A stretch of 35,303 bases of DNA from Solirubrobacterales bacterium (GTDB lineage: Bacteria > Actinomycetota > Thermoleophilia > Solirubrobacterales > Solirubrobacteraceae). This document shows, in pieces, positions 15,879-35,138 of the stretch (position 1 is its first letter; each line of letters starts with the position of its first letter). The translations under genes and the position numbers were made by a program. A model generated the notes under the pieces. The model ran no database searches. It worked only from the letters and a program-made list of their open reading frames with translations, and was not told where the DNA came from. The DNA lies in assembly GCA_025963905.1 (NCBI GenBank), contig JAOPZW010000338.1, forward strand, positions 1 to 35,303. The letters are read 5' to 3'.

Positions 15879-16100
15879 TCAGCGGCTCGCGCGCAGGCGC
15901 CTGACGCTCACGGCGCCCTCCTGCGCCACGACGTCGACGCGGCATCGTTCCTCCGCCAGGGCCAGGAACCGGTCGGCGGCGTCGTCGCTCAGCGGCGCCT
16001 CGGCGTCACGAGGCCGAAGAAGCCGCACGTCGCGGCTGGGGAGCGCCACGACCTCGTCCACGAGGTCCACGCGCGTGAGGATGCAGGGCGCGGCCACCAT
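15879..16100 (-). pseudogene. Possible internally deleted methyltransferase remnant
   Basis: 73-aa ORF: VDLVDEVVALPSRDVRLLRPRDAEAPL resembles the N-terminus of nicotinamide-N-methylase-like methyltransferases; joined to a short C-terminal-like tail with no SAM-binding motif. Confidence 0.3.
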
Positions 16101-16151
16101 CCTCAGGGTTGCACCCCCGGGCCGAATCGTCAGCTCTCACGACGACCTTCC

Positions 16152-16991
16152 TCAGCCCTTCGTCAACCGGGCCGGTTCCGCACCCACGGGTGGCCTGCGA
16201 CGACCCGGCGGCGGCTCGCCGCCATCGCGCAGCTGCGGCACGAGCCAGGCCGCCTCCAGCGCGATCCGCCAGCTCATCTTCGAGCTGCCGTGCGCGCGCC
16301 GGCCGAAGGTGATCGGGACCTCGTGCACCTGGAACCCGGCGCGCAGCGCGCGGTAGGTCAGCTCCACCTGGAAGGCGTAGCCGCGCGAACGCACGGTGGC
16401 CAGGTCGATCGCTTCCAACACCTCCGCCGCGAAGCACTTGAAGCCGCCGGTGAGGTCGCGGACGTCGAGCCCGAGCACCATGCGGGCGTACCGGCAGCCG
16501 CCCCGGCTTGTCGCCCGGCGCAGGAGGCTCCAGTCGCTGATCTGACCGCCGCGGACGTAGCGCGAGCCGAGCGCCAGGTCGGCCCCGCCGTCGCGCACGG
16601 CCGCCAGGAGGCGCGCCAGGTCGCGCGGGTCGTGCGAGCCGTCGGCGTCCATCTCCATCACATAGGCGGCGCCGCCGGCGAGCGCGTGGCGGAAGCCGGC
16701 CACGTACGCGGGCCCCAGTCCCTCCCGCACGCTGCGATGGAGGACCTCGATGCCGGCGTGCGCGGCGGCCAGGCGGTCGGCGATCGAACCGGTGCCGTCC
16801 GGGGAGTCGTCGTCGACGATCAGGATGCGAAAGCCCGCCGGCGCTGCCTGCTCGAGCACCCTGCGGACGGCGGCGACGATGGCCTCGATGTTCTCCGCCT
16901 CGTTGAACGTCGGCAGGACGACCCACGGGACCGCGCCGCCCGCGGAGCCGGCGCGGTGGCTGCTCTCGAGGTGCTCGAGGAGGGACGTCAT
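16152..16991 (-). CDS. GT2 glycosyltransferase, polyprenol-phosphate mannosyltransferase (DPM1)-like
   Basis: VVLPTFNEAENIEAIVAAVRRVL...LIVDDDSPDGTGSIADRLA...YVMEMDADGSHDPRDLARLL...DLTGGFKCF...EVPITFGRRAHGSSKMS. Confidence 0.9.
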   Translation of the reverse strand: MTSLLEHLESSHRAGSAGGAVPWVVLPTFNEAENIEAIVAAVRRVLEQAAPAGFRILIVDDDSPDGTGSIADRLAAAHAGIEVLHRSVREGLGPAYVAGFRHALAGGAAYVMEMDADGSHDPRDLARLLAAVRDGGADLALGSRYVRGGQISDWSLLRRATSRGGCRYARMVLGLDVRDLTGGFKCFAAEVLEAIDLATVRSRGYAFQVELTYRALRAGFQVHEVPITFGRRAHGSSKMSWRIALEAAWLVPQLRDGGEPPPGRRRPPVGAEPARLTKG

Positions 16992-17995
16992 CGCCCCACC
17001 GCCAGCACGGGAGGGGCGGCCGGCGTCCCGTACCAGGCGGAGGCGAGATGGACGCCCTCGCGGAGGGCGACCCAGGGCCTGTAGCCCAGCTCGCGCCTGG
17101 CCTTGTCGACCGCGTGCCGATTGTCCGTCCCGAACAGCTTCACGCCGAGCCGGGTCACGACGGGCTGGCGCTGCGAGCGTGTGAGCATCGCGAGGCGCTC
17201 GGCGGCGTATCCGGCGGCGTACAGGGCGCGGTAGGGAAGGTGGACGCGCGGGGGGCTCGCGCCGATCTCGTGCGCGATCGCGTGGAGGAGCTGTCGCTGG
17301 GTGAGCGGGCGGTCGCTGGTGATGTTGTAGGCCTGGCCGAGCGCGCGCTCCCTGTCGAGGGCGAGGAGGAGCCCCTGGACCACGTCGGTGACGTAGACGA
17401 ACGGCAGGACGTTGTCGCCCGACCCGACGATCACGCCCTTGCCGGCGCGCAGCCGGTCGGCCATCCGGCCGAAGTGCAGGCGATCGCCGGGCCCGAAGAA
17501 CGTGCCCGGGCGGATGATGACCGCGGGCAGGCCGTCCTTGGCGATCATCCGCTGGACGAGCACGTCGCCTGCGGCCTTCGTGACGGCGTACGGCTCTGGA
17601 AACGGGTTCAGCGGGAAGTCCTCGTGGGCAGGCCTGCCCAGTGCCATCCCGTAGACCGTCCACGAGCTCACGTGTACGACGCGAGCTCCTTGGGCGAGCG
17701 CCGCGCGGCAGACGTTTTCGGTGCCGGTCACGTTGACGGCGTGGTAGTCCTCCATCGGCCGCCAGACGCCCATCATGCCGGCGAGATGCAGCACCGCATC
17801 CGCGCCGTGCATCGGCGTGACCAGCGTCTCCGGCCGGCGAATGTCCCCTCGGTGGACCTCGACGCCGCGCTCCTGCAGCCAGGGCGCCTCCTCGCCGGGA
17901 AGCACCAGCACGCGCACGCTGTCGCCGCGATCCTGCAGAGCGGAGACGACGTGGTGGCCCAGCAGCCCGTTGCCACCGGTGATCAGGATGTCCAT
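16988..17995 (-). CDS. NAD-dependent epimerase/dehydratase family protein (copy 1)
   Basis: MDILITGGNGLLGHHVVSALQDRG; YAVTK catalytic motif; ATG overlaps the preceding SDR gene. Confidence 0.88.
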   Translation of the reverse strand: MDILITGGNGLLGHHVVSALQDRGDSVRVLVLPGEEAPWLQERGVEVHRGDIRRPETLVTPMHGADAVLHLAGMMGVWRPMEDYHAVNVTGTENVCRAALAQGARVVHVSSWTVYGMALGRPAHEDFPLNPFPEPYAVTKAAGDVLVQRMIAKDGLPAVIIRPGTFFGPGDRLHFGRMADRLRAGKGVIVGSGDNVLPFVYVTDVVQGLLLALDRERALGQAYNITSDRPLTQRQLLHAIAHEIGASPPRVHLPYRALYAAGYAAERLAMLTRSQRQPVVTRLGVKLFGTDNRHAVDKARRELGYRPWVALREGVHLASAWYGTPAAPPVLAVGR

Positions 17996-18792
17996 GTTGC
18001 TGGTTCCTCCTCCTTGACCGGCGACCAATGGCGGCGCCGGTACGCGAGATCGGCCATGCCTGGAAGCACCTGCTCGAGCCAGGCGATGGCGTAGTGCCTG
18101 CCGGGCACGACGACCTCACGGCGCGGGTGGGCGACGAGGTCGGCGATCGTGGTCGCCACGAGCTCGGGCTGCGGCATCGCCGCCCGAACGTGCGTGGTCA
18201 TCGCGGTGTCGATGTTGCCGGGTGAGACGAGCGAGACCGACACGCCGGTCCCGGCCAGCTGCCGGCGCAACGCCAGCGAGAAGCCGCGCACGCCATATTT
18301 GCTCGCCGAGTAGAGCGGTTCCATGGCCACCCGCCCGGAGAGCGACCCCACCGAGATGACCGCTCCGCGGCGGCGTTCCAGCATGTCCGGGAGCACGGCG
18401 CGCGTCAGCAGGATGGCGCCGAGCAGATTCACCTCGAGCAGGCCGATGACGTCATCGGGTGGGCTCGAGGCCAAGGGTTTCGACCAACCCGCGCCGGCGT
18501 TGTTCACCAGCACGTCGATCCGCCCGAAGGTCGCCATGGTGCGCTCGGCCAGCAGCGTCACCTGGCTTGCGTCCGCCACGTCGGTGGGAATCACGATGGC
18601 TTCGCCGCCCGCTTGACGTATGGCTCGCGCCTGGGCCTCCAACTCGTCCACGCGGCGCGCCGCGAGCACCACGGTCGCACCACGCCGTGCGAGCTCGCGC
18701 GCCGTGGCCGCGCCGATGCCGGAGCTGGCGCCGGTCACGATCGCCACGTCGCCGAGCAGCGTCGGCCGCGCCGTCTCCGCCTCGTGGACCAT
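17983..18792 (-). CDS. Short-chain dehydrogenase/reductase
   Basis: VAIVTGASSGIGAATARELARRGATVVLAAR; VNNAGAGW; YSASKYGVRGFS. Confidence 0.9.
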   Translation of the reverse strand: MVHEAETARPTLLGDVAIVTGASSGIGAATARELARRGATVVLAARRVDELEAQARAIRQAGGEAIVIPTDVADASQVTLLAERTMATFGRIDVLVNNAGAGWSKPLASSPPDDVIGLLEVNLLGAILLTRAVLPDMLERRRGAVISVGSLSGRVAMEPLYSASKYGVRGFSLALRRQLAGTGVSVSLVSPGNIDTAMTTHVRAAMPQPELVATTIADLVAHPRREVVVPGRHYAIAWLEQVLPGMADLAYRRRHWSPVKEEEPATWTS

Positions 18793-19833
18793 CTACGTGT
18801 TGACCTCCTCCCCGACGCGCGCAGGAGCGGGCTCGCGCGCCGGGAGCTCACGGTCTCGTTGCCGGTACCAGGCGGCCGCGAGACGCACGCCCTCGCGGAG
18901 GGCCACCCGAGGCGCGTAGCCCAGCTGGCGCCGCGCCCTGTCGATCACGTAGCGGTTGTCGGTGCCGAAGAACGCCACCCCGAGCCGGGTGATCGGCGGT
19001 CGCCGTGACGAAGGTACGAGGGTCGCGAGGCGCTCGGCGGCGTAGCCGGCGGCGTAGAGGGCCCGGTAGGGGATGTGGAGGCGCGGTGGCCGCGCGCCGA
19101 TCTCGTGCGCGATCGCGTCAAGGAGCTGTTGCTGCGTGAGCGGGCCGTCGCTGGTGATGTTGTAGGCCCGGCCGAGCGCGCGCTCGTGGTCGAGTGCGAG
19201 GAGAAGCCCCTGGACAGCGTCGGTGACGTAGACGAAGGGCAGGGCGTTGTCGCCCGAGCCCACCACGATGGCTCTGCCGGCGCGCAGCCGGTCCGCCATC
19301 TGGCCGAAATGCAAGGCATCGCCGGGTCCGAAGATCTGGTCCGGCCGGACGATGACGGCGGGCAGGCGATCCTCGGCGATCATCCGTTGCACCAGCACGT
19401 CCCCCGCGGCCTTGGTGATCGGGTACGGATCGGGGAACGGCGTCAGCGGAAAGCCCTCGTCGGCGGGGCGTCCCAGACCGACGCCGTAGACGCTCGACGA
19501 GCTCATGTGGACGAGGCGGCGGGCGCCGGCGGCGAGCGCTGCCCGGCAGACGTTCTCGGTGCCCGTCACGTTCACCGCGTGGTAGTCCGCCATTGGGCGC
19601 CAGACATCCATCATGGCGGCAAGGTGGAGCACTCCGTCCACGCCCTGGGTCGGAGCAATCAGCGCCTCTCGATCGCGGATGTCCCCCCGGTGGATCGCGA
19701 CGCCGCGCTCCTCGAGCCATCGGGTGTCCTCGGTCGGCAACGCCAGCACCCGCACGCTGTCACCCCGGCGTTGCAGGGCCGCCACCACATGGCGCCCCAC
19801 GAAGCCGTTGCCGCCGGTCACGAGGATCTCCAT
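18793..19833 (-). CDS. NAD-dependent epimerase/dehydratase family protein (copy 2, close paralog of copy 1)
   Basis: MEILVTGGNGFVGRHVVAALQRRGDSVRVLALP...YPITK; strongly similar to 16988-17995 along its length. Confidence 0.88.
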   Translation of the reverse strand: MEILVTGGNGFVGRHVVAALQRRGDSVRVLALPTEDTRWLEERGVAIHRGDIRDREALIAPTQGVDGVLHLAAMMDVWRPMADYHAVNVTGTENVCRAALAAGARRLVHMSSSSVYGVGLGRPADEGFPLTPFPDPYPITKAAGDVLVQRMIAEDRLPAVIVRPDQIFGPGDALHFGQMADRLRAGRAIVVGSGDNALPFVYVTDAVQGLLLALDHERALGRAYNITSDGPLTQQQLLDAIAHEIGARPPRLHIPYRALYAAGYAAERLATLVPSSRRPPITRLGVAFFGTDNRYVIDRARRQLGYAPRVALREGVRLAAAWYRQRDRELPAREPAPARVGEEVNT

Positions 19834-20843
19834 CACACGTGTCCGTTCGTTGCCGCGGCCGCGCCGTAGGCCCCGCGATACCACTCGACACTGCGCCTGA
19901 CACCCTCGGCGAGGCCGACCTCCGGCGAGAACCCGAGCTCGCGCCTGGCGCGGCTGATGTCGAAGCGGTTCTCGCCGCCCAGCAGCTGGATGCCGTACCG
20001 CATGATGGGCGGCGGCTGCCGTCGACGAGTCAAGCGGCCGACGGCCTCCCCGACGGCGCCCAGCGCCACGCCGAGCTCGTACGGGATGCGCCTCGTGGGT
20101 GCCGGGGCGGCCAGCTCGGCGGCGATGGCGCCGACGAAGTCCCGCTGCGTCACCGCCTCGTCGTTGACCAGCAGATAGGACTTGCCCACCGCCTGTCCCG
20201 CCTCGCTCGCGAGCAGGATGCCCCGCGCCGCGTCGCGGACGTAGATCAACGGCAGGTGGTTGCGCCCGGAGCCGAGCATGATCATCCGGCGCTTCTCGAT
20301 CGTCCCGGCGAGGCGGGCGAAGCTCGCGGTGTCGCGCGGGCCGTAGATCCAGCCGGGCCGCACGATCGTCACCGGCGCGCCCTCGTCTCGGATCATGCGC
20401 TCCAGCAGCCGCTCGCCCGCGACCTTCGACCGGCTGTACGGGTTGGGCTCCGCGCGCAGTGGCGCGCTCTCGTCGGCTTCGCCTCGCACATCGTTGCCAT
20501 GGACGGTGATCGAGCTGACGTGCACGAAGCGGCGAACGCCGGCGGCCAGCGCCGTTCGCACCAGCGCCTCGAGGGCGCGCACGTTCGTCCGCTCGTATTC
20601 GGCCTCCGGGCCCCACGGCCCGGTTCGGGCCGCACAGTGCAGGACGCAATGCACCCCGCTCAACGCCTCATGGAGCGACGCGCGGTCGCAGATGTCCCCG
20701 GTATGGACCTCGAGCTCGGCCTCGGCCAGCGCGCCGGCGCCGTCGGCGGGGACCAGGACGCGTGGCCGCTCGCCGCGTGCCAGAAGCAGCTCGGTCAGAT
20801 GGCTGCCGAGGAAGCCGGTGGCGCCGGTCACGAGCAGCGTCAT
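19833..20843 (-). CDS. NAD-dependent epimerase/dehydratase family protein (copy 3)
   Basis: MTLLVTGATGFLGSHLTELLLARGERPRVLV...HVSSITVHG...YSRSKVAGE. Confidence 0.88.
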   Translation of the reverse strand: MTLLVTGATGFLGSHLTELLLARGERPRVLVPADGAGALAEAELEVHTGDICDRASLHEALSGVHCVLHCAARTGPWGPEAEYERTNVRALEALVRTALAAGVRRFVHVSSITVHGNDVRGEADESAPLRAEPNPYSRSKVAGERLLERMIRDEGAPVTIVRPGWIYGPRDTASFARLAGTIEKRRMIMLGSGRNHLPLIYVRDAARGILLASEAGQAVGKSYLLVNDEAVTQRDFVGAIAAELAAPAPTRRIPYELGVALGAVGEAVGRLTRRRQPPPIMRYGIQLLGGENRFDISRARRELGFSPEVGLAEGVRRSVEWYRGAYGAAAATNGHV

Positions 20844-21892
20844 ACGCCTTCCCGCTCTCCCGGATCCCGGGCCAGGCGCAAGGTCCCGCGCAGGGTCAGG
20901 CCCATGACGCTCAGGCAGATGAGCCCGCTGGCGGTCATGAGGACGGCGGTCCACGGGTGCGAGAACAGGAACATCGCACCCACTCCCGAGCGGTCGAGCC
21001 CGAACAGCCCCGAGAAGATCAACAGGCCGATGAGCTCGTTGCTTCCGACCTGGCCGGGCGGCGTGGGCAGGATGAACGCCAGGTTGTAGAAGGTGTAGCC
21101 GTAGAGGATGGTGGGGAGGGCAACGGTTACGCCGACGGCCTTGAACGCCAGGAAGCAGAAGACTGCGTCGAGACCGACGGCGACGGCGGTATACGCGGCC
21201 GCGGTGAGCATCAAACGCGGTTGCCGGATGAGCGCCAGCAGGGTGTCGACGAACAGCACGATGAATGGCTCGACCCGCTGTCGTGCACCGCCGGGCAGTG
21301 CCGCGGCCAGCGGGCCTGTGAGAAGCGCCAGGGCTCGCTCGCGTCGCCAGGCCGCGAGCGCGAGGATGACGACCCCGAGACCGACCACCGCCATCGCGGA
21401 GAGCAGCAACACCCAGAGCGGCCGGCTCAGGTGGAGATGCACGAACGGCAGGAGCGCGAGAAGGCCGACCGCCGGCAGGAGGTCCATGGCCTTGTCCATG
21501 CTCACCGTCGCCAGCGATCGACTGACCGGAATGCCGTCCGAGCGCCGCAGCAGCAGGCTCTTGGCCAGCTCCCCGCCGCGGACCGGCAGCAACCAGTTGA
21601 GGAACGTGGCCACCTGATAGATGGCGACCGCCCGGCGAATGCTCACCTCGCACGGCCGCAGAAGGCAGCGCCAGCGCATGGCACGGACGACATACGCCCC
21701 GAGGAACGCGACGCCGCACAGGAGCGCGAAGCCGATGCTGAGGTGCTCGAGCCGCCGGTAGACCGCGTTCACGTTCACCAGGCGCAGGAAGGTGACGATC
21801 AGGAGGGCCCCGGCACAGAGCCCGAGGATCGTGCGTAGCGCCACGGCGCGGACGCGGGTGGTCCGGACACGAGGTGTGGCAGCTACCTCCAT
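20840..21892 (-). CDS. Lysylphosphatidylglycerol synthase TM-region / flippase-like membrane protein
   Basis: MEVAATPRVRTTRVRAVALRTILGLCAGALLIVTFLRLVNVNAVYRRLEHLSIGFALLCGVAFLGAYVVRAMRWRCLL...LNWLLPVRGGELAKSLLLRR...FILPTPPGQVGSNELIGLLIF, PF03706-like pattern. Confidence 0.82.
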   Translation of the reverse strand: MEVAATPRVRTTRVRAVALRTILGLCAGALLIVTFLRLVNVNAVYRRLEHLSIGFALLCGVAFLGAYVVRAMRWRCLLRPCEVSIRRAVAIYQVATFLNWLLPVRGGELAKSLLLRRSDGIPVSRSLATVSMDKAMDLLPAVGLLALLPFVHLHLSRPLWVLLLSAMAVVGLGVVILALAAWRRERALALLTGPLAAALPGGARQRVEPFIVLFVDTLLALIRQPRLMLTAAAYTAVAVGLDAVFCFLAFKAVGVTVALPTILYGYTFYNLAFILPTPPGQVGSNELIGLLIFSGLFGLDRSGVGAMFLFSHPWTAVLMTASGLICLSVMGLTLRGTLRLARDPGEREGV

Positions 21893-22422
21893 GAGCCCGC
21901 CCTCCCGCTGCGCACGTGTGCGGCCTCGTGGCAGGGACCGCACAGAGCGATCAGGTTCCGTGGCTCATACGACGGCAGCAGCCACGGCTGCTCGCGGAGA
22001 TGCGTGCCGACGTACCCCGCCCGCGTCCCGCAGGCCTGGCACGAGAAGTCATCCCGCTCCAGCGCCGCCGCCCGCGCCTCGTCCATGCGCGCGTCGTGAT
22101 GGGCATCGAGCACGACATGCAGGCCCATGCCCAGGGCGACCGGCAGCAGCTCCCGTCGGCGAACGCCGGCGACGAGGACGGCCAGCAGGGCCGCGGGACT
22201 GTGGAGGACCCGCGTCGCCGGGTGCTGGGGCGCGTGGGCCTGGTTGAAGAAGCGGATCGCCGCCGGGGGGCTCCACCGGCGCTGTCGCAGGCAGAACCAC
22301 AGGTAGTGGTCGGCGTCGACGAACACGCCTGCAGCCCAGAGGTCCAGCGCGCGGCGGCCGAGCAACGGGGAGACCAGCGCGGCACCCGCCGTGGAGAGGG
22401 CGATGTGATCTCGCACGCGCAT
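21883..22422 (-). CDS. Membrane hydrolase-like N-terminal region fused to an HNH-type zinc domain
   Basis: N-term MRVRDHIALSTAGAALVSPLLGRRALDLWAAGVFVDADHYLWF; C-term FSCQACGTRAGYVGTHLREQPWLLPSYEPRNLIALCGPCHEAAH (CxxC...H...N...CxxCxxxxH). Confidence 0.65.
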   Translation of the reverse strand: MRVRDHIALSTAGAALVSPLLGRRALDLWAAGVFVDADHYLWFCLRQRRWSPPAAIRFFNQAHAPQHPATRVLHSPAALLAVLVAGVRRRELLPVALGMGLHVVLDAHHDARMDEARAAALERDDFSCQACGTRAGYVGTHLREQPWLLPSYEPRNLIALCGPCHEAAHVRSGRAGSWR

Positions 22423-23420
22423 CACACGGCCGCCGGGAGGTGGCCCTCCCCCCGGTACCACGCCATGCTGCGCGTGGTACCGGTGGAGAGCTCCGTGGGG
22501 GCTGCGAAGTCGAGCAGGCGCTGCGCCTTGGCGACGTCGTAGACGCGGCTGTGCGTCAGGAACTCCAGTCGGCTGCGCGTGAGCGGAGCGGACGCCTTGA
22601 GCGTGGGGGGGAGCCGGTCGCAGAGCGCCGCCACGGCCCGGGCGGCGCGGAGCGGGATGTGCCCCGGCGGCAGCCGGGTGCCGCCGGCTCGCGCGATGGC
22701 TTGTGCCAGCTCACCCAGCGCCACGGGCCTCCGCCCGGCGAGATGGAAGCACTCGCCCACGGCCGCGTCACGCTCGCCGCACCGCACCAGCGCCTCCGTC
22801 ATGTCGTCGATGTAGATCGGGTGCAGCCAGACCGTCCGCCGGCCGATGGGACGGAACTGGCGGCGAAGGACCGACCGGAAGAACGCGAGGAGATGGAGGT
22901 CGCCGGGCCCGTAGACGAGCCCGGGTCTGGCGATGACCGCGGGGAAGCCGGCTCGGGACGCATCGCGGACGGCGAGCTCGGCTTCGGCCTTCGTGGCCTC
23001 ATAGACGTTGGTGGGACGAAACGGGGCGCTCTCGTCGGCGGGCCGGTCACCCGTCACCCCCAGGACCCCCGTGGTGCTGCAGTGGACGAACCGCTCCAGC
23101 GCCGGCGCCTCCTGACAGCAGGCGAGGAGCAGCTTCGTCCCTTCGACGTGCGTCCTGCGGTACTCCAGCCCCGGGACGCCCGGGGCGAGCAGGCGGCCCG
23201 CGAGGTGGTAGACGACTTCCACGTCCTCCACCGCGGCGGCGACAGCGACGGTATCGGTGATGTCACCGACCACGATCCGGGCGCCTTGGTCCAGCAGCGG
23301 CTTTGCCTTCTCGGGCGACCGCGCCAGCACGCGCACCCGCGCCCCGCCGGACAGGAGGCGGCGCACCAGGTTCGCACCTAGGAACCCGGTCGCACCGGTC
23401 ACGAGCACGGTCGGGCTCAA
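22422..23420 (-). CDS. NAD-dependent epimerase/dehydratase family protein (copy 4)
   Basis: SPTVLVTGATGFLGANLVRRLLSGGARVRVLARSPEKAKPLL...YEATKAEAEL; likely TTG start overlapping the radical SAM stop (TTGA). Confidence 0.87.
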   Translation of the reverse strand: MSPTVLVTGATGFLGANLVRRLLSGGARVRVLARSPEKAKPLLDQGARIVVGDITDTVAVAAAVEDVEVVYHLAGRLLAPGVPGLEYRRTHVEGTKLLLACCQEAPALERFVHCSTTGVLGVTGDRPADESAPFRPTNVYEATKAEAELAVRDASRAGFPAVIARPGLVYGPGDLHLLAFFRSVLRRQFRPIGRRTVWLHPIYIDDMTEALVRCGERDAAVGECFHLAGRRPVALGELAQAIARAGGTRLPPGHIPLRAARAVAALCDRLPPTLKASAPLTRSRLEFLTHSRVYDVAKAQRLLDFAAPTELSTGTTRSMAWYRGEGHLPAAV

Positions 23421-24559
23421 GCCGACCGCTCCACCATGTGTGCCGCGCGTCGCCGGGCCACCCTGGAGCGCGCCACGTCGGCCACGACCTTCGTGACCGT
23501 CGGCCCGTGGGTGAGCATGTTCGTATACGCCGCGTTGGCCAGCGGGCAGTGGCACTCGCCGGCCTTGATGCTCCGCCGCAGCTGGGCGGCCTTCCCCGTG
23601 CGCCACACGGAGCCGAAGTCATAGTCGTGCTCGCGCAGGTTGCCCATGGACTGCGCCCGCACGCAGCAGGGCCAGACGTCTCCGTTGGGGGCGATCTGCG
23701 CGGAGGCCACACCCGCCATGCACGGGATGACCTGGCGCTGCTCGCGCAGCGTTCGCTTCACGAGGTCGTAGTACTGGCGGCGGAAGGCCTGGGTCACCTC
23801 GGCGACGCCGGTGAGCCGCTGCTCGCGCATGCTCTCCAAAAGCGTGTCGATCGCGACCGTGTACTTCTCGACCGTCGGCGTGATCCCCAGGCCGACGGTG
23901 TCGAGCTCGACGCGCTCCTCGGCGATCTCCGTGATGTAGGAGTCAGGCTCGAGCTCCCGTTGCACGTACTCGCACAGCTCCGGGAACGAGTCGACGTTGA
24001 AGTTCGAGATGACCGTGTGGATCCCGAGCGTGAGGTGCTTGTACTGCTTCTGCAACTCCTTGAGGGCGGCCCAGGTGATCATCGCGTGGGACCAGTTGTT
24101 CCGGACCCCGCGGACCTCGTCGTGCTTCAAGCCGACACCGTCGAGCGAGAGGTTGATGATCACCTGGGATTTCGGCGCCGCCTGCAGCACCTGCTCGATG
24201 CGACCCGGGATGACCTTGTGCTGGATGCCGTTCGTCGGGATGTTGATGATGCCCGGCCGGCAGTGCCGGTAGGCGCTGGCCACCATCTCGGGCAGCTCCT
24301 TGCGCAGCGTGGGCTCCCCGCCGCTGAACGTGAACCAGTACGGGGCGTCGCCCAGGGACTCGTAGACGCGGTCCCACTCGGAGAGGGTGAGATCGTCGTT
24401 GGGCAGGAGCCACACGTTGCAGGTCTTGCAGCGCGAGTTACACCGATAGCTCACGCTCACGGTGATGTTCACCGGCAATCTGAGGACGCGTCCGGTGGAG
24501 TACGACGCCCTCAGCGCGGGAATTTCAGGTAGGACCTTCGCCATCCCCATTTGAGACAC
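23417..24559 (-). CDS. Radical SAM protein with SPASM-like C-terminus
   Basis: NITVSVSYRCNSRCKTCNVWLL (CxxxCxxC), FTFSGGEPTLRKELPEM, and IAPNGDVWPCCVRAQSMGNL...GECHCPLANAAY. Confidence 0.9.
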   Translation of the reverse strand: MSQMGMAKVLPEIPALRASYSTGRVLRLPVNITVSVSYRCNSRCKTCNVWLLPNDDLTLSEWDRVYESLGDAPYWFTFSGGEPTLRKELPEMVASAYRHCRPGIINIPTNGIQHKVIPGRIEQVLQAAPKSQVIINLSLDGVGLKHDEVRGVRNNWSHAMITWAALKELQKQYKHLTLGIHTVISNFNVDSFPELCEYVQRELEPDSYITEIAEERVELDTVGLGITPTVEKYTVAIDTLLESMREQRLTGVAEVTQAFRRQYYDLVKRTLREQRQVIPCMAGVASAQIAPNGDVWPCCVRAQSMGNLREHDYDFGSVWRTGKAAQLRRSIKAGECHCPLANAAYTNMLTHGPTVTKVVADVARSRVARRRAAHMVERSA

Positions 24560-24563
24560 ACTC

Positions 24564-26021
24564 CTAGCTCGGCATCGACGCTGCGGGCTCGGCCGCCAGC
24601 AGCGGTATCGGGAACGACCTTGCGAGCGGCGGCCCGGCCTGTGGGAAGGCGATCACCCCGCAGGCGAGCGTGACGTGGGCGGTCTCGCCGTGGCCGTTGA
24701 GCGAGACCGGCGTGGTCTCGAACTGCTCCACGAGCTCACGAGCTCGCTCTTCCGCCGCCTCACGGTCACCGGCCAGCAGGGCGACGATCGTCCCGCTGCG
24801 CTGGATGGACACGGTGGCCTTGGACCCGAGCGCTCGCTTGATGTGCTCGGTCACGCGCCGCGTCAACTGGCGGCCGGCATGGACCCCCAGCTCGAGCTGC
24901 TGGCGGTGGAAGTCGACGATGTGGAAGACCAGGATGTTCTGCTGGCCGTGGGCATTCGCTCCCTCCGCGATGTGCAGTTTCGTCGTGGCGGAGACCGCCC
25001 ACACGTGCTGCGGCCGGCGGCGCTTCGCGTCGTAGTGGCCCAGCCCGCGGGCGGCCGCTTCGAGCCCGATGGTGCCCACGCTCCACAGGGCGGCGCGCGG
25101 TGTGGTGAAAGACCCCGATCCGCCTAGCGCCTGGAGCACCCGCCGCGCGCTCATCGTCGAGGCCGAATAGGCCTGCTGCTCGCGCACTTGCAGATGCCCC
25201 GCGTGGATCCGGCGCCGCTGGCGCAGGAAGTCGCCGACGGTCGCGGGTCCGCGGTTGTAGACGACCGCCTCCGGCTCGTATACGAGCTGATACCCGAGCT
25301 GGGTGACGAGGGCCTGGATGGAGATCTCGTCGACTGCCGTGTCGAGCGGGATGCTCGGCACGACATTGCGGAATGCGACGATCTCACCCAACTTCGGCGA
25401 TTCGCGCGCGATGCGGTCGTGCAGTCGCCACTGAAGGTGAACGGCGTGGCCCAGGAAGGTCGTCTCGCTGTTGACGGGCGTCGGGTGTCCTCCCACCATC
25501 CCCACGGCGGGGTCGTGGAAGTGGCGGACGAGCGCGTCGATCGTGCCGTCCTTCACCAGCACGTCCGCGCTCACCATGAGCAGGATCGGAGACCGTGCCG
25601 CGCTGATGAAGAGGTTGATCGCGGATGCCTTCCCTTCGCGGCACTCCTGCTCGATCAGGCGCACGCGCGGGTCGTCGCGGGCGATGTCGGCGACGATCGG
25701 CGCCGTTGCGTCCTCGCAGCCACTCGCCACCACGATGAGCTCCGTGATGTGGCTCGAGGTGAGCTTCTGCCCGAGGATCGTGCCGATGGCCTCGGCGATG
25801 TTGGCCTCTTCGTTGTACGCCATGATGCCGACGCTGCAGCCGAACCCCCGTTCGGGCAGCACCCCCGAATCGACGGGACGGTCCCTCAAGTCCACCGACA
25901 CGTCTGCCTCCCTCGACGTTGTGCCTGCCATGTCTGGGCCCAGCCTCGGGCTCGGGTTTTCCACGGTGATTCCAACGCCCGTTCCGTGAGCCCGGAACTC
26001 CGGACGAAACTGCCGCGTCAT
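24564..26021 (-). CDS. GT2 glycosyltransferase with a C-terminal degenerate GGDEF-like domain
   Basis: GCSVGIMAYNEEANIAEAIGTILGQKL...LIVVASGCEDAT...LMVSADVLVKDGTIDALVRHF; C-term ILVFHIVDFHRQQLELGVHAGRQLTRRV...RSGTIVALLAGDREAAEERARELVEQFE...HVTLACGVIAFP. ATGA overlap with the upstream gene supports start 26021. Confidence 0.8.
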   Translation of the reverse strand: MTRQFRPEFRAHGTGVGITVENPSPRLGPDMAGTTSREADVSVDLRDRPVDSGVLPERGFGCSVGIMAYNEEANIAEAIGTILGQKLTSSHITELIVVASGCEDATAPIVADIARDDPRVRLIEQECREGKASAINLFISAARSPILLMVSADVLVKDGTIDALVRHFHDPAVGMVGGHPTPVNSETTFLGHAVHLQWRLHDRIARESPKLGEIVAFRNVVPSIPLDTAVDEISIQALVTQLGYQLVYEPEAVVYNRGPATVGDFLRQRRRIHAGHLQVREQQAYSASTMSARRVLQALGGSGSFTTPRAALWSVGTIGLEAAARGLGHYDAKRRRPQHVWAVSATTKLHIAEGANAHGQQNILVFHIVDFHRQQLELGVHAGRQLTRRVTEHIKRALGSKATVSIQRSGTIVALLAGDREAAEERARELVEQFETTPVSLNGHGETAHVTLACGVIAFPQAGPPLARSFPIPLLAAEPAASMPS

Positions 26022-26281
26022 CCCTGCCCGCGCATGACTTGCCGAGCGATCTGGCGCACCTTGTGCTCCACCCGCCCACCTCGCTCGGCACGCTCGTTCA
26101 TGGCGCGCTCGTGCGCCTGGATCAAGAAGGCGGGCGTGGCCGGGCCGCCGGGCAGCCCCTGCTGCCTTTGGATGCCGGCGAGGGCCTCGTAGTGCTGGCT
26201 CGCCCAGTAGACGTTCATGCGGCACGAGACGCAGTTCCACTCCTGGTCCGGCGTCTCGGCGCCGCATTGCGGGCACTGCAT
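26018..26281 (-). CDS. Small zinc-ribbon protein
   Basis: MQCPQCGAETPDQEWNCVSCRMNVYWASQHYEALAGIQRQQG...; CxxC...CxxC. Confidence 0.75.
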   Translation of the reverse strand: MQCPQCGAETPDQEWNCVSCRMNVYWASQHYEALAGIQRQQGLPGGPATPAFLIQAHERAMNERAERGGRVEHKVRQIARQVMRGQG

Positions 26282-26506
26282 GGCCAACCCCCTCTGTGTC
26301 CAGGCGTTGCTCGACGACGGCATCCTGGCCACGCGCAGTTCCACAACGCTTCCAACAACTAGCCGGAATTCAGATATCGGCTCGCGCGAGTTCGGCGGCC
26401 GGTTCGCCGTTCTAGTCGTGGAGGATCAAGTCAATGCGACTGAGATCGCTTCCTTCGATTTGGTCATGGGGCGAAGGCATCGGTAGCGGGCGTATGGGGG
26501 GGCCGC

Positions 26507-28603: not shown

Positions 28604-28686
28604 GCTTCGGGCTGCGGCCCTCCCCCTGCTTGGGAACAACGCTGGAAGAGCGCTGGAACGGACGCGCAGGATGCTCGATCCGCCGA

Positions 28687-31600
28687 ATGGTGCGTTCTAG
28701 CCAACGCTCGCCGGAAGATGCGCGTGGCGCGCCCACGCGTCGGGCGCTTCACGCATCGTTGAGGTGGGTCGGCGGGGTGGTCGTGGCCGCAGCGGTGGGT
28801 GCGGGCGCGGAGATGGCCGTCGCGTCGCTCCACGCCGCCTTGCTTCTCTACTCCCTGTATATCGCCGTTTCGCTCGTCGTGGGAGCTATTGCCTGGACCA
28901 CCCTCGTCTGGATGCTCCACGCGTGGCGTACTCCGTCGTCTCTCGTCGAGAGTCGCCTGGCCCGGGATGAGCTCGAGCCCGCGCACTCCTTCTCCTTGAT
29001 CGTGCCCGCCCGCCACGAGGAGGCGGTGCTGGAGGCGACGCTCTCGCGCCTCGTCACGAGCGATCATCCGGACTTCGAGGTCCTGGTGGTCGTCGGAGCC
29101 GACGACCCCGCGACCCGTGAGGTCGCGGAACGCGTGGCTGAGCGCCACCCCGAGGTGGTCAAGGTCATCGTCGACACCAGCTGGCCGAAGAACAAGCCGA
29201 AGGCGCTGAACGCGGCGCTCCTCTCCTGCACGGGCGCGATCACCGGCGTGTTCGACGCCGAGGACGACGTCCATCCGGCGCTGCTTCAGCGAGTTGACCA
29301 GTGCTTCCAGCGCAGCGATGCAGACGTCGTGCAGGCCGGTGTCCAACTGATGAACTTCCGCTCGAGCTGGTTGACCGTCCGAAACGTCCTCGAGTACTAC
29401 TTCTGGTTCCGGAGCCGGCTTCACCGCCACGCAGGCCAGCGTTTCGTCCCGCTCGGCGGCAATACCGTCTTCGTCCGTACTCAGGTCCTGCGGGCCGTGT
29501 CTGGCTGGGACTCGGACTGCCTGGCGGAGGACTGCGAGCTCGGCGTGCGACTGAGCGCGCTCGGGGCCCGCATCGCCGTCTTCTACGAGCCCGAGCTCGT
29601 GACGCGTGAGGAGTGCCCGCCGACGCTCGGCGCATTCGCCCGGCAGCGGACACGCTGGAATCAGGGATACCTCCAGACCTTGTCCAAGGGCTACTGGCGA
29701 AGGTTGCCGTTCAGGCAGCGTGCACTCGGCGGTTACATCCTGGCGACGCCGTACATGATGGCGATCTCGTGGGTCATGATGCCCGTCGCGATCGCCACCA
29801 CCGTCGCCGTGAAGGCGCCGGTTCCGATCACGCTCATCGCCTTCGTCCCGGCGCTCCCCATGCTGTCGATGCTTGCGGTGGAGATCGCCGGCCTCGGCGA
29901 CTTCTGCCGAGCGTATGGCGAGCGCGCCTCGGCGCGGGACTACGGGCGCCTGATCCTCGGGCTACCGCTGTACCAGGCGGTTCTGGCCTTCGCGGCCGCG
30001 CGAGCCGTCGTACGCGAGGCCAGGGGCAATCGCGGCTGGGAGAAGACGGCGCATCTGGGCCTGCACCTCGCGCAGCCGGCCGAGGAGCAGGGCGAGCGAT
30101 CGGATGCGGCGCTGCGAGTGCCCTCGCCGCGGGCAGGGCCTGGTCAGCGAGCCGCGACGGGCTCTCGCGTCCTCGAGCTGCACCCCGTCGCCCGCGTCCT
30201 CGCCCAAGGCTTCGCCGGCGCCAACGGGACTGTCGGGATGAGCGCCGATCGGCTGGGCCGCGGCCGGCTCGTCGTGGCTCCTCAGAACGACCTGTTGCCC
30301 GAGAACCTCGAGGCATCCCCGGGGGGCTGGGGAGGCGCCGCAGGCAACGGTCACGGCGACCGGCCGCAGGCCTTCGCCGACGATCTGCTCGGAGCAGTCG
30401 GCCGCGGACCCCTCTGGGTGCGGCTCGAAGCCGCGACGGGGAACGGTTCGGCCCCACTGGCGCTCCCGGGCATCCCTGCGGTGGGGTCGGCGCGCGCGGG
30501 AGGAAGCCGGCTCGCAGACGCGCGCGCGCTCGTGGAGAGCGTCGTCACGTCGCGCGCCGAGCTTCTCGTGCAATTCGTGCTGCTCGCAGTGATCGCAAGC
30601 GTGCAGGCGACGAACATGTTGCACTGGCCCGACCCCCAGTTCGACGAAGGCACCTACGTCGGCAACGCGTGGGCCGTGCACCGCGGGGCCCTCGCGCCCT
30701 ACACCTACAGCTACGGCCACCCGCCGCTGGCCTGGCTCTTCATCGCGCTCTGGACACGGGCGAGCGGGATCTTCGGGCACGGGACGTACTCGATAGACAC
30801 CGGACGCCAGTTCATGTTCGTGGTCAGCGTGGTCAGCTGCTCGCTCGTCTACACGCTTGCCCGCCGGCTCGAGATGAGCCGCCCGTTTGCAGCCGCGGCG
30901 GTGGTCCTCTTCGCGCTCTCCCCGGTTGGCTTGTACTTCCATCGCGCGGTGCTGCTCGACAATGTGGCGATCGCCTGGGCGCTCGCGGCGTTCGTCCTTG
31001 CCGTGACCCCACGGCGCCGTCTGTGGGGCTTCGCCGCAAGCGGCGCGTGCTTCGCCGCCGCCGTGCTCTCCAAGGAGACGACGCTCGTCCTGCTGCCGGC
31101 GCTGCTTCTGGCCGCAGCCCAGAACGCCGACGGGCGCACGCGGCGTTACTGCCTGACGCTGCTCGCCTCCTTCTTGGCCCTGGTCGTCTTCGTCTATCCG
31201 CTCTACGCGATCCTGAAGGGCGAGCTGCTGCCGGGACCGGGGCACGTGAGCCTCGTCGGTTACACGCTCGTCCAGCTCTTCACCCGCAAGGCCACCGGAA
31301 GCGTCTTCGACCCACACAGCGAGACGCGCCACATCGTCACGGAGTGGCTCAGGCTCGACCCCTGGCTTCTCGGAGCTGCGCTCGCTCTCTCCGCGATCGC
31401 TCTCGCCCGCCGCAGTACCCGGGCGGTCGCAGTCGCGTTCCTCATCCAAGTCGGGATGGCTCTCCGACCCGGCTACCTCCCCAACATGTACGTGATAGGG
31501 CTGCTCCCCTTCGCCGCGCTCATCGTCGCAGGAGGGAGCGAGGCGCTGTGGCGCAGGGCGCAAGCCGTGACGCCTCGGGTGTTCGGGTGGTCGGCGCAGG

Positions 31601-32067
31601 CGGCGATCGCAGCCCTAGCGGTGGCCGTGGTGCTCGTCGTCGCACCTCACTGGAGGGACGGCGTCAACGCAGCGACGACGTCCACGCTCGATGGCCCCGA
31701 GCGTACGGCCCAGCGTTGGCTCGTCGACAACGTCGGTCACGACAAGCGGCTCATCGTCGACGATGGGTTCTGGATCTATCTCATCGCGCACGGCTTCGAT
31801 GCCCGCCCGATGCGAGGCGGCTTCTTCTCGCAGACGGTCGTTTCGTACTGGCCGCTCGATTACGACCCGGCCGTCAAGAAGCATTTCCCCAATGGCTGGC
31901 GAGACTTCGACTACGTTGTGTCGACGCAGGCCATTCGCTCCACGACGACGCTCACCCCGACGGCAGCCCGGGCGCTCGATCACTCGCGAGTGGCGGCGGT
32001 GTTCGGGCACGGGCAAACCCGGATCGAGATCCGCGCGATCACCCGGGCGCAGCGCCCAACTCCGTGA
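28687..32067 (+). CDS. Fusion glycosyltransferase: processive-type GT2 plus PMT/GT39-like membrane glycosyltransferase
   Basis: GT2: SLIVPARHEEAVLEATLSRL, FDAEDDVHP, LAEDCELGVRL, QRTRWNQG. C-term: PDPQFDEGTYVGNAWAVHRGALAPYTYSYGHPPLAWLFIALWTRASG with multiple TM segments. TTG at 28630 is an alternative start. Confidence 0.85.
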   Translation: MVRSSQRSPEDARGAPTRRALHASLRWVGGVVVAAAVGAGAEMAVASLHAALLLYSLYIAVSLVVGAIAWTTLVWMLHAWRTPSSLVESRLARDELEPAHSFSLIVPARHEEAVLEATLSRLVTSDHPDFEVLVVVGADDPATREVAERVAERHPEVVKVIVDTSWPKNKPKALNAALLSCTGAITGVFDAEDDVHPALLQRVDQCFQRSDADVVQAGVQLMNFRSSWLTVRNVLEYYFWFRSRLHRHAGQRFVPLGGNTVFVRTQVLRAVSGWDSDCLAEDCELGVRLSALGARIAVFYEPELVTREECPPTLGAFARQRTRWNQGYLQTLSKGYWRRLPFRQRALGGYILATPYMMAISWVMMPVAIATTVAVKAPVPITLIAFVPALPMLSMLAVEIAGLGDFCRAYGERASARDYGRLILGLPLYQAVLAFAAARAVVREARGNRGWEKTAHLGLHLAQPAEEQGERSDAALRVPSPRAGPGQRAATGSRVLELHPVARVLAQGFAGANGTVGMSADRLGRGRLVVAPQNDLLPENLEASPGGWGGAAGNGHGDRPQAFADDLLGAVGRGPLWVRLEAATGNGSAPLALPGIPAVGSARAGGSRLADARALVESVVTSRAELLVQFVLLAVIASVQATNMLHWPDPQFDEGTYVGNAWAVHRGALAPYTYSYGHPPLAWLFIALWTRASGIFGHGTYSIDTGRQFMFVVSVVSCSLVYTLARRLEMSRPFAAAAVVLFALSPVGLYFHRAVLLDNVAIAWALAAFVLAVTPRRRLWGFAASGACFAAAVLSKETTLVLLPALLLAAAQNADGRTRRYCLTLLASFLALVVFVYPLYAILKGELLPGPGHVSLVGYTLVQLFTRKATGSVFDPHSETRHIVTEWLRLDPWLLGAALALSAIALARRSTRAVAVAFLIQVGMALRPGYLPNMYVIGLLPFAALIVAGGSEALWRRAQAVTPRVFGWSAQAAIAALAVAVVLVVAPHWRDGVNAATTSTLDGPERTAQRWLVDNVGHDKRLIVDDGFWIYLIAHGFDARPMRGGFFSQTVVSYWPLDYDPAVKKHFPNGWRDFDYVVSTQAIRSTTTLTPTAARALDHSRVAAVFGHGQTRIEIRAITRAQRPTP

Positions 32068-34184: not shown

Positions 34185-35138
34185 ATGAGCGAGACCTCGA
34201 GCCGACTCCTGGAGCTGCTCTCCCTGCTCCAGGGGCGCCGCGACTGGCCCGGCAACGAGCTGGCCGCCCGTCTCGACGTGTCCGGCAGGACGATCCGGCG
34301 CGACATGGACCGGCTGCGCCGGCTCGGCTACCCGGTGGAGTCCCTCAGCGGCCCGGCGGGCGGGTACCGGCTTCGCGCCGGAAGCGCGATGCCGCCGCTG
34401 CTCCTCGACGACGAGGAGGCGATCGCGATCGCGGTCGGCCTTCGCACCGCCGCGCGGGCCTCGGTGACCGGCATCGAGGAGACCGCCGTGCGAGCGCTCG
34501 TCAAGCTAGAGCAGGTCCTTCCGGCGCACCTCCGCCGCCGCGTCGCCGCACTGGGCGCGGCGACGTACACGCTCCCGGTCGCCGGCCCGACGGTCGACCC
34601 GCAGCACCTCACCGTGATCGCCGCCGCCTGCCGCGACTCTGAGTGCCTTCGCTTCGGCTACCGCAGCCGCGATGGCACCGACAGCCGGCGCGAGGTCGAG
34701 CCCCACTCGCTCGTCAACCACGGCCGCCGCTGGTACCTCGTCGCCTGGGATCGTGGCCGCGACGACTGGCGGACGTTCCGCGTCGATCGTCTGGCCACCC
34801 CGGCGTCGACCGGCGCGCGCTTCGTCGCGCGGAGCCTGCCGGAGAAGGATGCGGCCGCCTACGTCAAGCGGAGCATCGCCGGGGCGCCGAACCGATTCGA
34901 AGCGCGGGTGACGCTGCACGTCGCCGCCGAGGAGATCACGAGCCGCGTCCCGGCCCACTGGGGCACGATCGAGCCGCTGGACGCGCACACCTGCGAGTAC
35001 CGGACGGGCGACGACGACCTCAGGTGGCTGGCCCTGCGCGTCGCGATGCTAGGCGTCGACTTCGACGTGCACGAACCCCCCGAGCTGGTCGAGCATCTGC
35101 GGACGCTGGCTTCCCGGCTCAGGCGCGCGGCGCGCTGA
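34185..35138 (+). CDS. HTH/WYL-domain transcriptional regulator (YafY-like)
   Basis: SSRLLELLSLLQGRRDWPGNELAARLDVSGRTIRRDMDRLRRLGYPVES HTH; RREVEPHSLVNHGRRWYLVAWDRGRDDWRTFRVDRL WYL core. Confidence 0.9.
   Translation: MSETSSRLLELLSLLQGRRDWPGNELAARLDVSGRTIRRDMDRLRRLGYPVESLSGPAGGYRLRAGSAMPPLLLDDEEAIAIAVGLRTAARASVTGIEETAVRALVKLEQVLPAHLRRRVAALGAATYTLPVAGPTVDPQHLTVIAAACRDSECLRFGYRSRDGTDSRREVEPHSLVNHGRRWYLVAWDRGRDDWRTFRVDRLATPASTGARFVARSLPEKDAAAYVKRSIAGAPNRFEARVTLHVAAEEITSRVPAHWGTIEPLDAHTCEYRTGDDDLRWLALRVAMLGVDFDVHEPPELVEHLRTLASRLRRAAR

Follow-up and report, generated by a model that had tools for sequence, protein, structure and literature searches.

The window analysed here, a stretch of 35,303 nucleotides from contig JAOPZW010000338.1 of a bacterium of the Solirubrobacterales, carries on its minus strand an open reading frame of 570 codons (24564-26276). 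Within it lies the segment (24640-24941, about aa 331-431 of the protein) in which the original prediction had seen a degenerate GGDEF-like domain at the end of a GT2 glycosyltransferase. The gene itself likely starts at the ATG at 25931 (Table 1), since a frame of full length would run into a small gene (26018-26344) that is also kept near the homologues. Upstream of the glycosyltransferase gene, at 26018-26281, we observed a small zinc-ribbon-like protein of 87 aa with a CPxCG-CxxC pattern; it has no Pfam match, but is 68-74% identical in loci L019 and L020 and partially matched in L022.

Table 1. Position of the glycosyltransferase gene, of its domains and motif sites, and of the genes that follow it in the window
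Feature	Coordinates	Strand	Basis or remark
GT2 glycosyltransferase with C-terminal degenerate GGDEF-type domain	24564-25931	minus	455 aa; Pfam Glycos_transf_2; full-length homologues L019-L032, L040, L048
GT2 catalytic core, ~aa 31-318	24978-25841	minus	invariant alignment columns
C-terminal tail, aa 316-455	24567-24986	minus	Pfam GGDEF, AlphaFold, Foldseek
QRSGTI at the GG[DE]EF motif position	24780-24797	minus	alignment
GSKA at the RxxD I-site position	24813-24824	minus	I-site lost in window tail
Radical SAM/SPASM protein, next gene	23417-24559	minus	Pfam Radical_SAM 2.6e-9, SPASM 3.8e-7
NAD-dependent epimerase/dehydratase (HpnA-like SDR)	22422-23450	minus	Pfam Epimerase 3.2e-36; synteny
Membrane-type protein with HNH-like C-terminus (CxxC...CxxC)	21883-22461		no Pfam family passes
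LPG_synthase_TM (flippase-like) membrane protein	20843-21907	minus	PF03706 E=6.8e-38; synteny

Residues 31-318 of the protein belong to the GT2 enzymes according to Pfam (PF00535, E=2.5e-22; PF13641, E=2.1e-15), and GtrB, PcManGT and ArnC are among the best Foldseek matches of the full-length model. In its core AYNEE, D123, V200-D-E202 and QRRRI (aa 238-242) are invariant, both in an alignment of the tailed homologues and in a multi-phylum alignment, and the active-site positions are also kept in relatives that have no tail; judging by these residues, the GT-A active site is intact. No strongly hydrophobic transmembrane segment was seen in the window protein, and a search of a phage collection returned weak GT2 matches only. 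The best NCBIfam score is that of PgaC_IcaA (TIGR03937, E=8e-23), but at 81 bits against an equivalog cut-off of 422 bits the identification of the enzyme as a poly-beta-1,6-GlcNAc synthase of the PgaC/IcaA type was rejected.

On the same strand the glycosyltransferase gene is followed by the radical SAM/SPASM, HpnA-like SDR, HNH-like and LPG_synthase_TM genes and then by further SDRs and a GT2, and for more than 7 kb L019 and L022 have their genes in the same order. The gene content suggests that the cluster makes a glycolipid or a surface glycan. Homologues of the glycosyltransferase split into two branches, the window's own and a Ktedonobacterial one; the HNH-like protein is found near the transferase in both (L024:6926-7450, L032:7036-7695, L023:59-607), even at loci that showed no radical SAM gene. 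The grouping of the GT2 gene with a radical SAM gene, and in most cases with an SDR gene, extends to the loci of tail-less relatives from several phyla. Loci in which the GT2 gene without a tail accompanies a radical SAM/SPASM gene, often with an HpnA-like SDR, are L034, L036, L038, L039, L042, L043, L044, L046, L047, L049 and L050, and in these the radical SAM gene often directly adjoins the GT2 gene. Elsewhere in the window, a single long frame at 28630-32067 combines a GT2 domain (Pfam 1.6e-42) with a membrane part that by eye resembles an ArnT/GT39-type transferase; its parts occur as one stretch in L019 and in reversed order in L022.

Among 60 family and order relatives of the window genome we found no orthologue of the glycosyltransferase (generic GT2 matches only, at 28-39% identity) and no orthologue of the radical SAM gene, whereas the flanking regulator at 34185-35138 has homologues of 66-80% identity in several of these relatives. 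The cluster (window positions ~16000-26300) therefore looks horizontally acquired and placed on a native contig. The same homologues of the regulator led us to reject pure mis-binning of the contig.

The original prediction held that the last ~100 residues follow the GGDEF fold pattern, and this reading stands. Of the two outcomes that it named as refuting, a fold other than the palm and assignment to another family, neither was obtained when both were tested. Every block that it named is present and in register with canonical GGDEF domains, as judged by alignment of the tails with 12 GGDEF proteins from the window genome: HIVDFHR with DLDDFK, the helix GRQLTRRVTEHIKRAL, RSGTIVALL with GGDEFxxLL, and VTLACGVIAFP with vtxSiGvaxyP. 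Of the Pfam families, GGDEF (PF00990) fits the window tail best (E=1.5e-4), with 22.0 bits just below the curated cut-off of 23.8, and GGDEF_2 (PF17853) is second at E=1.1e-3. The GGDEF family matches five of the 15 members of the tail family, with a best score of E=4.2e-6. A search of the PDB with a single tail by phmmer gave nothing useful and an alignment profile was needed; the profile of the 15 tails, run against all PDB sequences, returned three proteins at E<0.05, all of them GGDEF. In a search of 397 whole genomes from the phylum to which the window belongs, the 15-tail profile gave weak matches beyond the window (E 1e-5 to 1e-3); among those that we read, most are plainly GGDEF domains, and the GGEEF motif is intact in several. 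An HMM made from the 12 GGDEF domains of the window genome placed ten of the 15 tails, among them that of the window, ahead of each of 1050 shuffled tails; a single shuffled tail follows in eleventh place, and the remaining five tails score lower. Comparison of the tail with GGDEF domains of its own genome by hhalign gave E=2.5e-4 but a probability of 43%, and was not relied on alone.

Structure prediction agrees with the profiles. The AlphaFold model of the tail, made from the tail alignment, has a pLDDT of ~90 in its core and shows a GGDEF-type palm (b-a-a-b-b-a-b) at about aa 330-430, with ends of low confidence. All 50 of the listed PDB matches found with this model by Foldseek are GGDEF domains or GGDEF-containing proteins, including Dcsbis, DosC, YfiN and PleD (E 4.6e-7 to 1e-4, query TM 0.62-0.69). 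In the full-length model the strands and helices of the tail follow in the same order, although at pLDDT 58 and pTM 0.40 that model is too weak for reading the interface between tail and transferase. The predicted structure thus has the palm of the GGDEF superfamily (PF00990), and it is well supported by these models that the tail is a GGDEF-type palm in fold.

What the tail has kept of the fold it has not kept of the active site. In all tails the domain is shortened at both ends, without the DPLTGLxNR start and the ADxALYxAK end. In the window tail the DxD of the metal position has become HIV, GGDEF has become RSGTI, and the positions that we take, from established knowledge of PleD, to be the guanine-contacting Asn and Asp have become Gln and Arg. 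The original prediction had reported the GG[DE]EF signature to be absent and catalysis to be unlikely, and by sequence both points are borne out; an active diguanylate cyclase was rejected, the GG[DE]EF motif, the metal Asp, the guanine Asn and Asp, DxLTxLxNR and ADxALYxAK all being missing. Catalysis was probably lost before the tail family diversified, since all aligned tails have Gly where the catalytic acid would be.

The prediction was also right that the window tail has no RxxD I-site. GSKA occupies its place and Glu that of the third, distal Arg, and on these replacements an I-site c-di-GMP receptor of the PelD/BcsE type was rejected for the window tail. The I-site R and D and the third R are likewise missing from its five closest distinct homologues, and the window's branch without I-site residues comprises L019, L020, L021, L022 and, by sequence, L116. 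To go by these residues, the window protein very probably does not bind c-di-GMP through the usual I-site. In the Ktedonobacterial branch, on the other hand, RKED is present in nine of the 11 distinct tails, with its R and D exactly 9 and 6 residues ahead of where GGDEF once stood; this is the spacing reported for PleD I-sites (PMC2170427), and the RKED aligns with the RPED I-site of Dcsbis. The full triad, with the third Arg present as AERI, is found in seven of the 11; the Ktedonobacterial-branch tails without the I-site D (L025 and L040) are also without the third Arg.

It is conceivable from the Ktedonobacterial sequences that c-di-GMP turns the glycosyltransferase on by binding to the tail as its receptor, in the manner of PelD, through the I-site in the homologues or through a rebuilt site in the window protein. 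PelD needs the same three residues, the I-site R and D and the third R (PMC2170427; PMC7112168), and c-di-GMP is a common means of control of polysaccharide transferases (PMC8461298). We nevertheless consider this explanation quite unlikely, as the residues are gone from the window tail and its nearest homologues and the genomes do not fit it. The complete genome of Ktedonosporobacter rubrisoli encodes a tail with the full triad, yet we found in it no canonical diguanylate cyclase, and a REC-GGDDF protein is all that matches GGDEF there. The picture is no different in several MAGs of Ktedonobacteria whose RKED is intact, although these MAGs are incomplete. The window, L022 and L025 genomes, conversely, have 12 GGDEF matches each and tails without the I-site, so that I-site retention does not follow cyclase content across genomes. 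For the window, an I-site acting as a c-di-GMP switch is therefore disfavoured by residue conservation and cyclase content alike. For the window protein the original suggestion of nucleotide sensing found no support at the residue level, as no position for the metal Asp, the guanine Asn and Asp, the I-site Arg and Asp or the third Arg has kept its residue. Sensing of c-di-GMP by this protein is improbable.

The REC-GGDEF-like protein with the GGDDF motif is itself conserved in Ktedonobacteria, occurring in K. rubrisoli (L127) and in L124, L125, L126, L128, L129, L130 and L135. It is the only GGDEF match in several Ktedonobacterial genomes, and the production of c-di-GMP there is questionable.

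In order to follow the history of the tail we used a tree of 39 glycosyltransferase cores. The presence of the tail on this tree takes 2 changes, against a mean of ~12 with shuffled labels, and none of 500 shuffles was as low. Most simply, the tail was gained once, at the base of a clade of 18 rows (support 100/100), and lost once, in a Ktedonobacter paralogue (L031, L033, L058). The tailed clade consists of Ktedonobacteria and related soil bacteria, while tail-less relatives belong to Nitrospirota, Acidobacteriota, Anaerolineae, Armatimonadota, Planctomycetota and others. Catalysis as such does not require the tail, given that the transferase domain lacks it in other phyla and in the Ktedonobacter paralogue. 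Scanning of genomes with the tail profile showed the tail once per genome wherever it is present, in 13 of 47 genomes of the class of K. rubrisoli and in 3 of 110 of the class of L022.

The tail is under purifying selection. Its dN/dS is 0.03-0.10 over all Ktedonobacterial pairs, and 0.03-0.09, close to that of the transferase core, in the pairs for which both could be computed. In the window clade the values are ~0.28-0.35 for the tail against 0.17-0.22 for the core, with synonymous estimates near 1 that make them rough. The tail is therefore maintained, although in the lineage of the window it is under less constraint than the core, and its faster evolution there also fits a domain that is only loosely needed. 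The main alternative to a specific function is a tail without any specific partner, either a relic that is shrinking or an appendage that does no more than stabilise the glycosyltransferase. The loss of the tail in the Ktedonobacter paralogue, the dN/dS of ~0.3 in the window's clade and the erasure of the active and ligand sites would all agree with this, but the strong constraint in Ktedonobacteria, the retention of the tail over a deep clade and its intact predicted fold do not, and we regard it as rather unlikely.

Dead GGDEF-type domains are known beside other polysaccharide enzymes, and the analogy with PelD in the original prediction finds support in architecture. PelD, the Pel receptor of Pseudomonas aeruginosa and Bacillus cereus, likewise places a dead GGDEF-type domain without GG[DE]EF in a polysaccharide system, and the Ktedonobacterial homologues share its RxxD and distal Arg. 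PelD is, however, a membrane protein in its own right, has a GAF domain and recruits a GT4 enzyme, whereas the tail described here is fused to a GT2, has no GAF domain and, in the window copy, no I-site. The REC-GGDEF* part (GIL) of BcsE, from cellulose secretion in E. coli, is another strongly degenerate GGDEF domain, and it docks BcsQ apart from c-di-GMP, the two being bound through independent interfaces (PMC7439463). Unlike the window protein, BcsE is no glycosyltransferase, and it has a REC domain and a working RxxD site. The union of a GT2 enzyme with a dedicated control module recalls the GT2 synthases under c-di-GMP control, BcsA (PilZ), PgaC/PgaD and BgsA, although in these control lies with PilZ, with membrane segments or with a separate C-terminal domain rather than with a GGDEF fold, and a controlling role of the window tail is what we infer. 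Canonical GGDEF cyclases such as PleD and Dcsbis share the fold with the tail, being its top Foldseek and profile matches, but differ from it in their catalytic, metal, guanine and N- and C-terminal motifs. GGDEF_2 (PF17853) is also GGDEF-like in fold, but it scores below PF00990 and its protein context differs.

The role that we favour for the window tail, and that by analogy we consider moderately probable, is that of a non-catalytic docking or control module of the GT2 enzyme, comparable to BcsE or PelD minus the ligand site; it keeps the structural control of the original prediction, or control through protein interaction, in place of nucleotide sensing. The transferase, with its apparently intact GT-A site, would work in a cluster with the radical SAM protein, the sugar-type SDRs and the flippase-like membrane protein. 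The truncated and catalytically dead GGDEF-type domain would make no c-di-GMP; instead, through the folded tail the transferase may dock to itself or to a partner, which would set its activity or location. The domain may have begun as a receptor for c-di-GMP. Loss of the ligand interface and retention of the other interface could have led from a BcsE-like state to the protein of the window.

It could also be proposed that the old active-site groove now senses some other small molecule, for example a nucleotide sugar or a polyprenyl product. Tails of the window clade have at the old active-site strand and helix a conserved set of their own, VFHI-[DN]FH...L..G, that is absent from canonical GGDEF domains; the base- and metal-binding positions of GGDEF are, however, replaced, and this proposal appears very unlikely. 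A broader scheme would have the whole glycosyltransferase family controlled by its fused dead GGDEF domain, this domain being an I-site receptor of c-di-GMP in the Ktedonobacteria and, after a later rewiring in the lineage of the window, a ligand-free docking module or one for a different ligand, but that is doubtful.

Our favoured reading of the window tail as a docking or control module concerns a combination of parts that are already known; it is their pairing, with a dead GGDEF domain fused directly to a GT2 enzyme, that is new, and full-text searches of open-licence papers brought to light no earlier description of such a GT2-GGDEF fusion. Dead GGDEF domains have been known as receptors beside polysaccharide enzymes, as in PelD and BcsE, but here such a domain is built into the transferase itself. 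With both I-site states in one orthologous family, and with one gain and one loss of the tail, the family offers a clean test of what becomes of dead domains after the loss of their ligand site.
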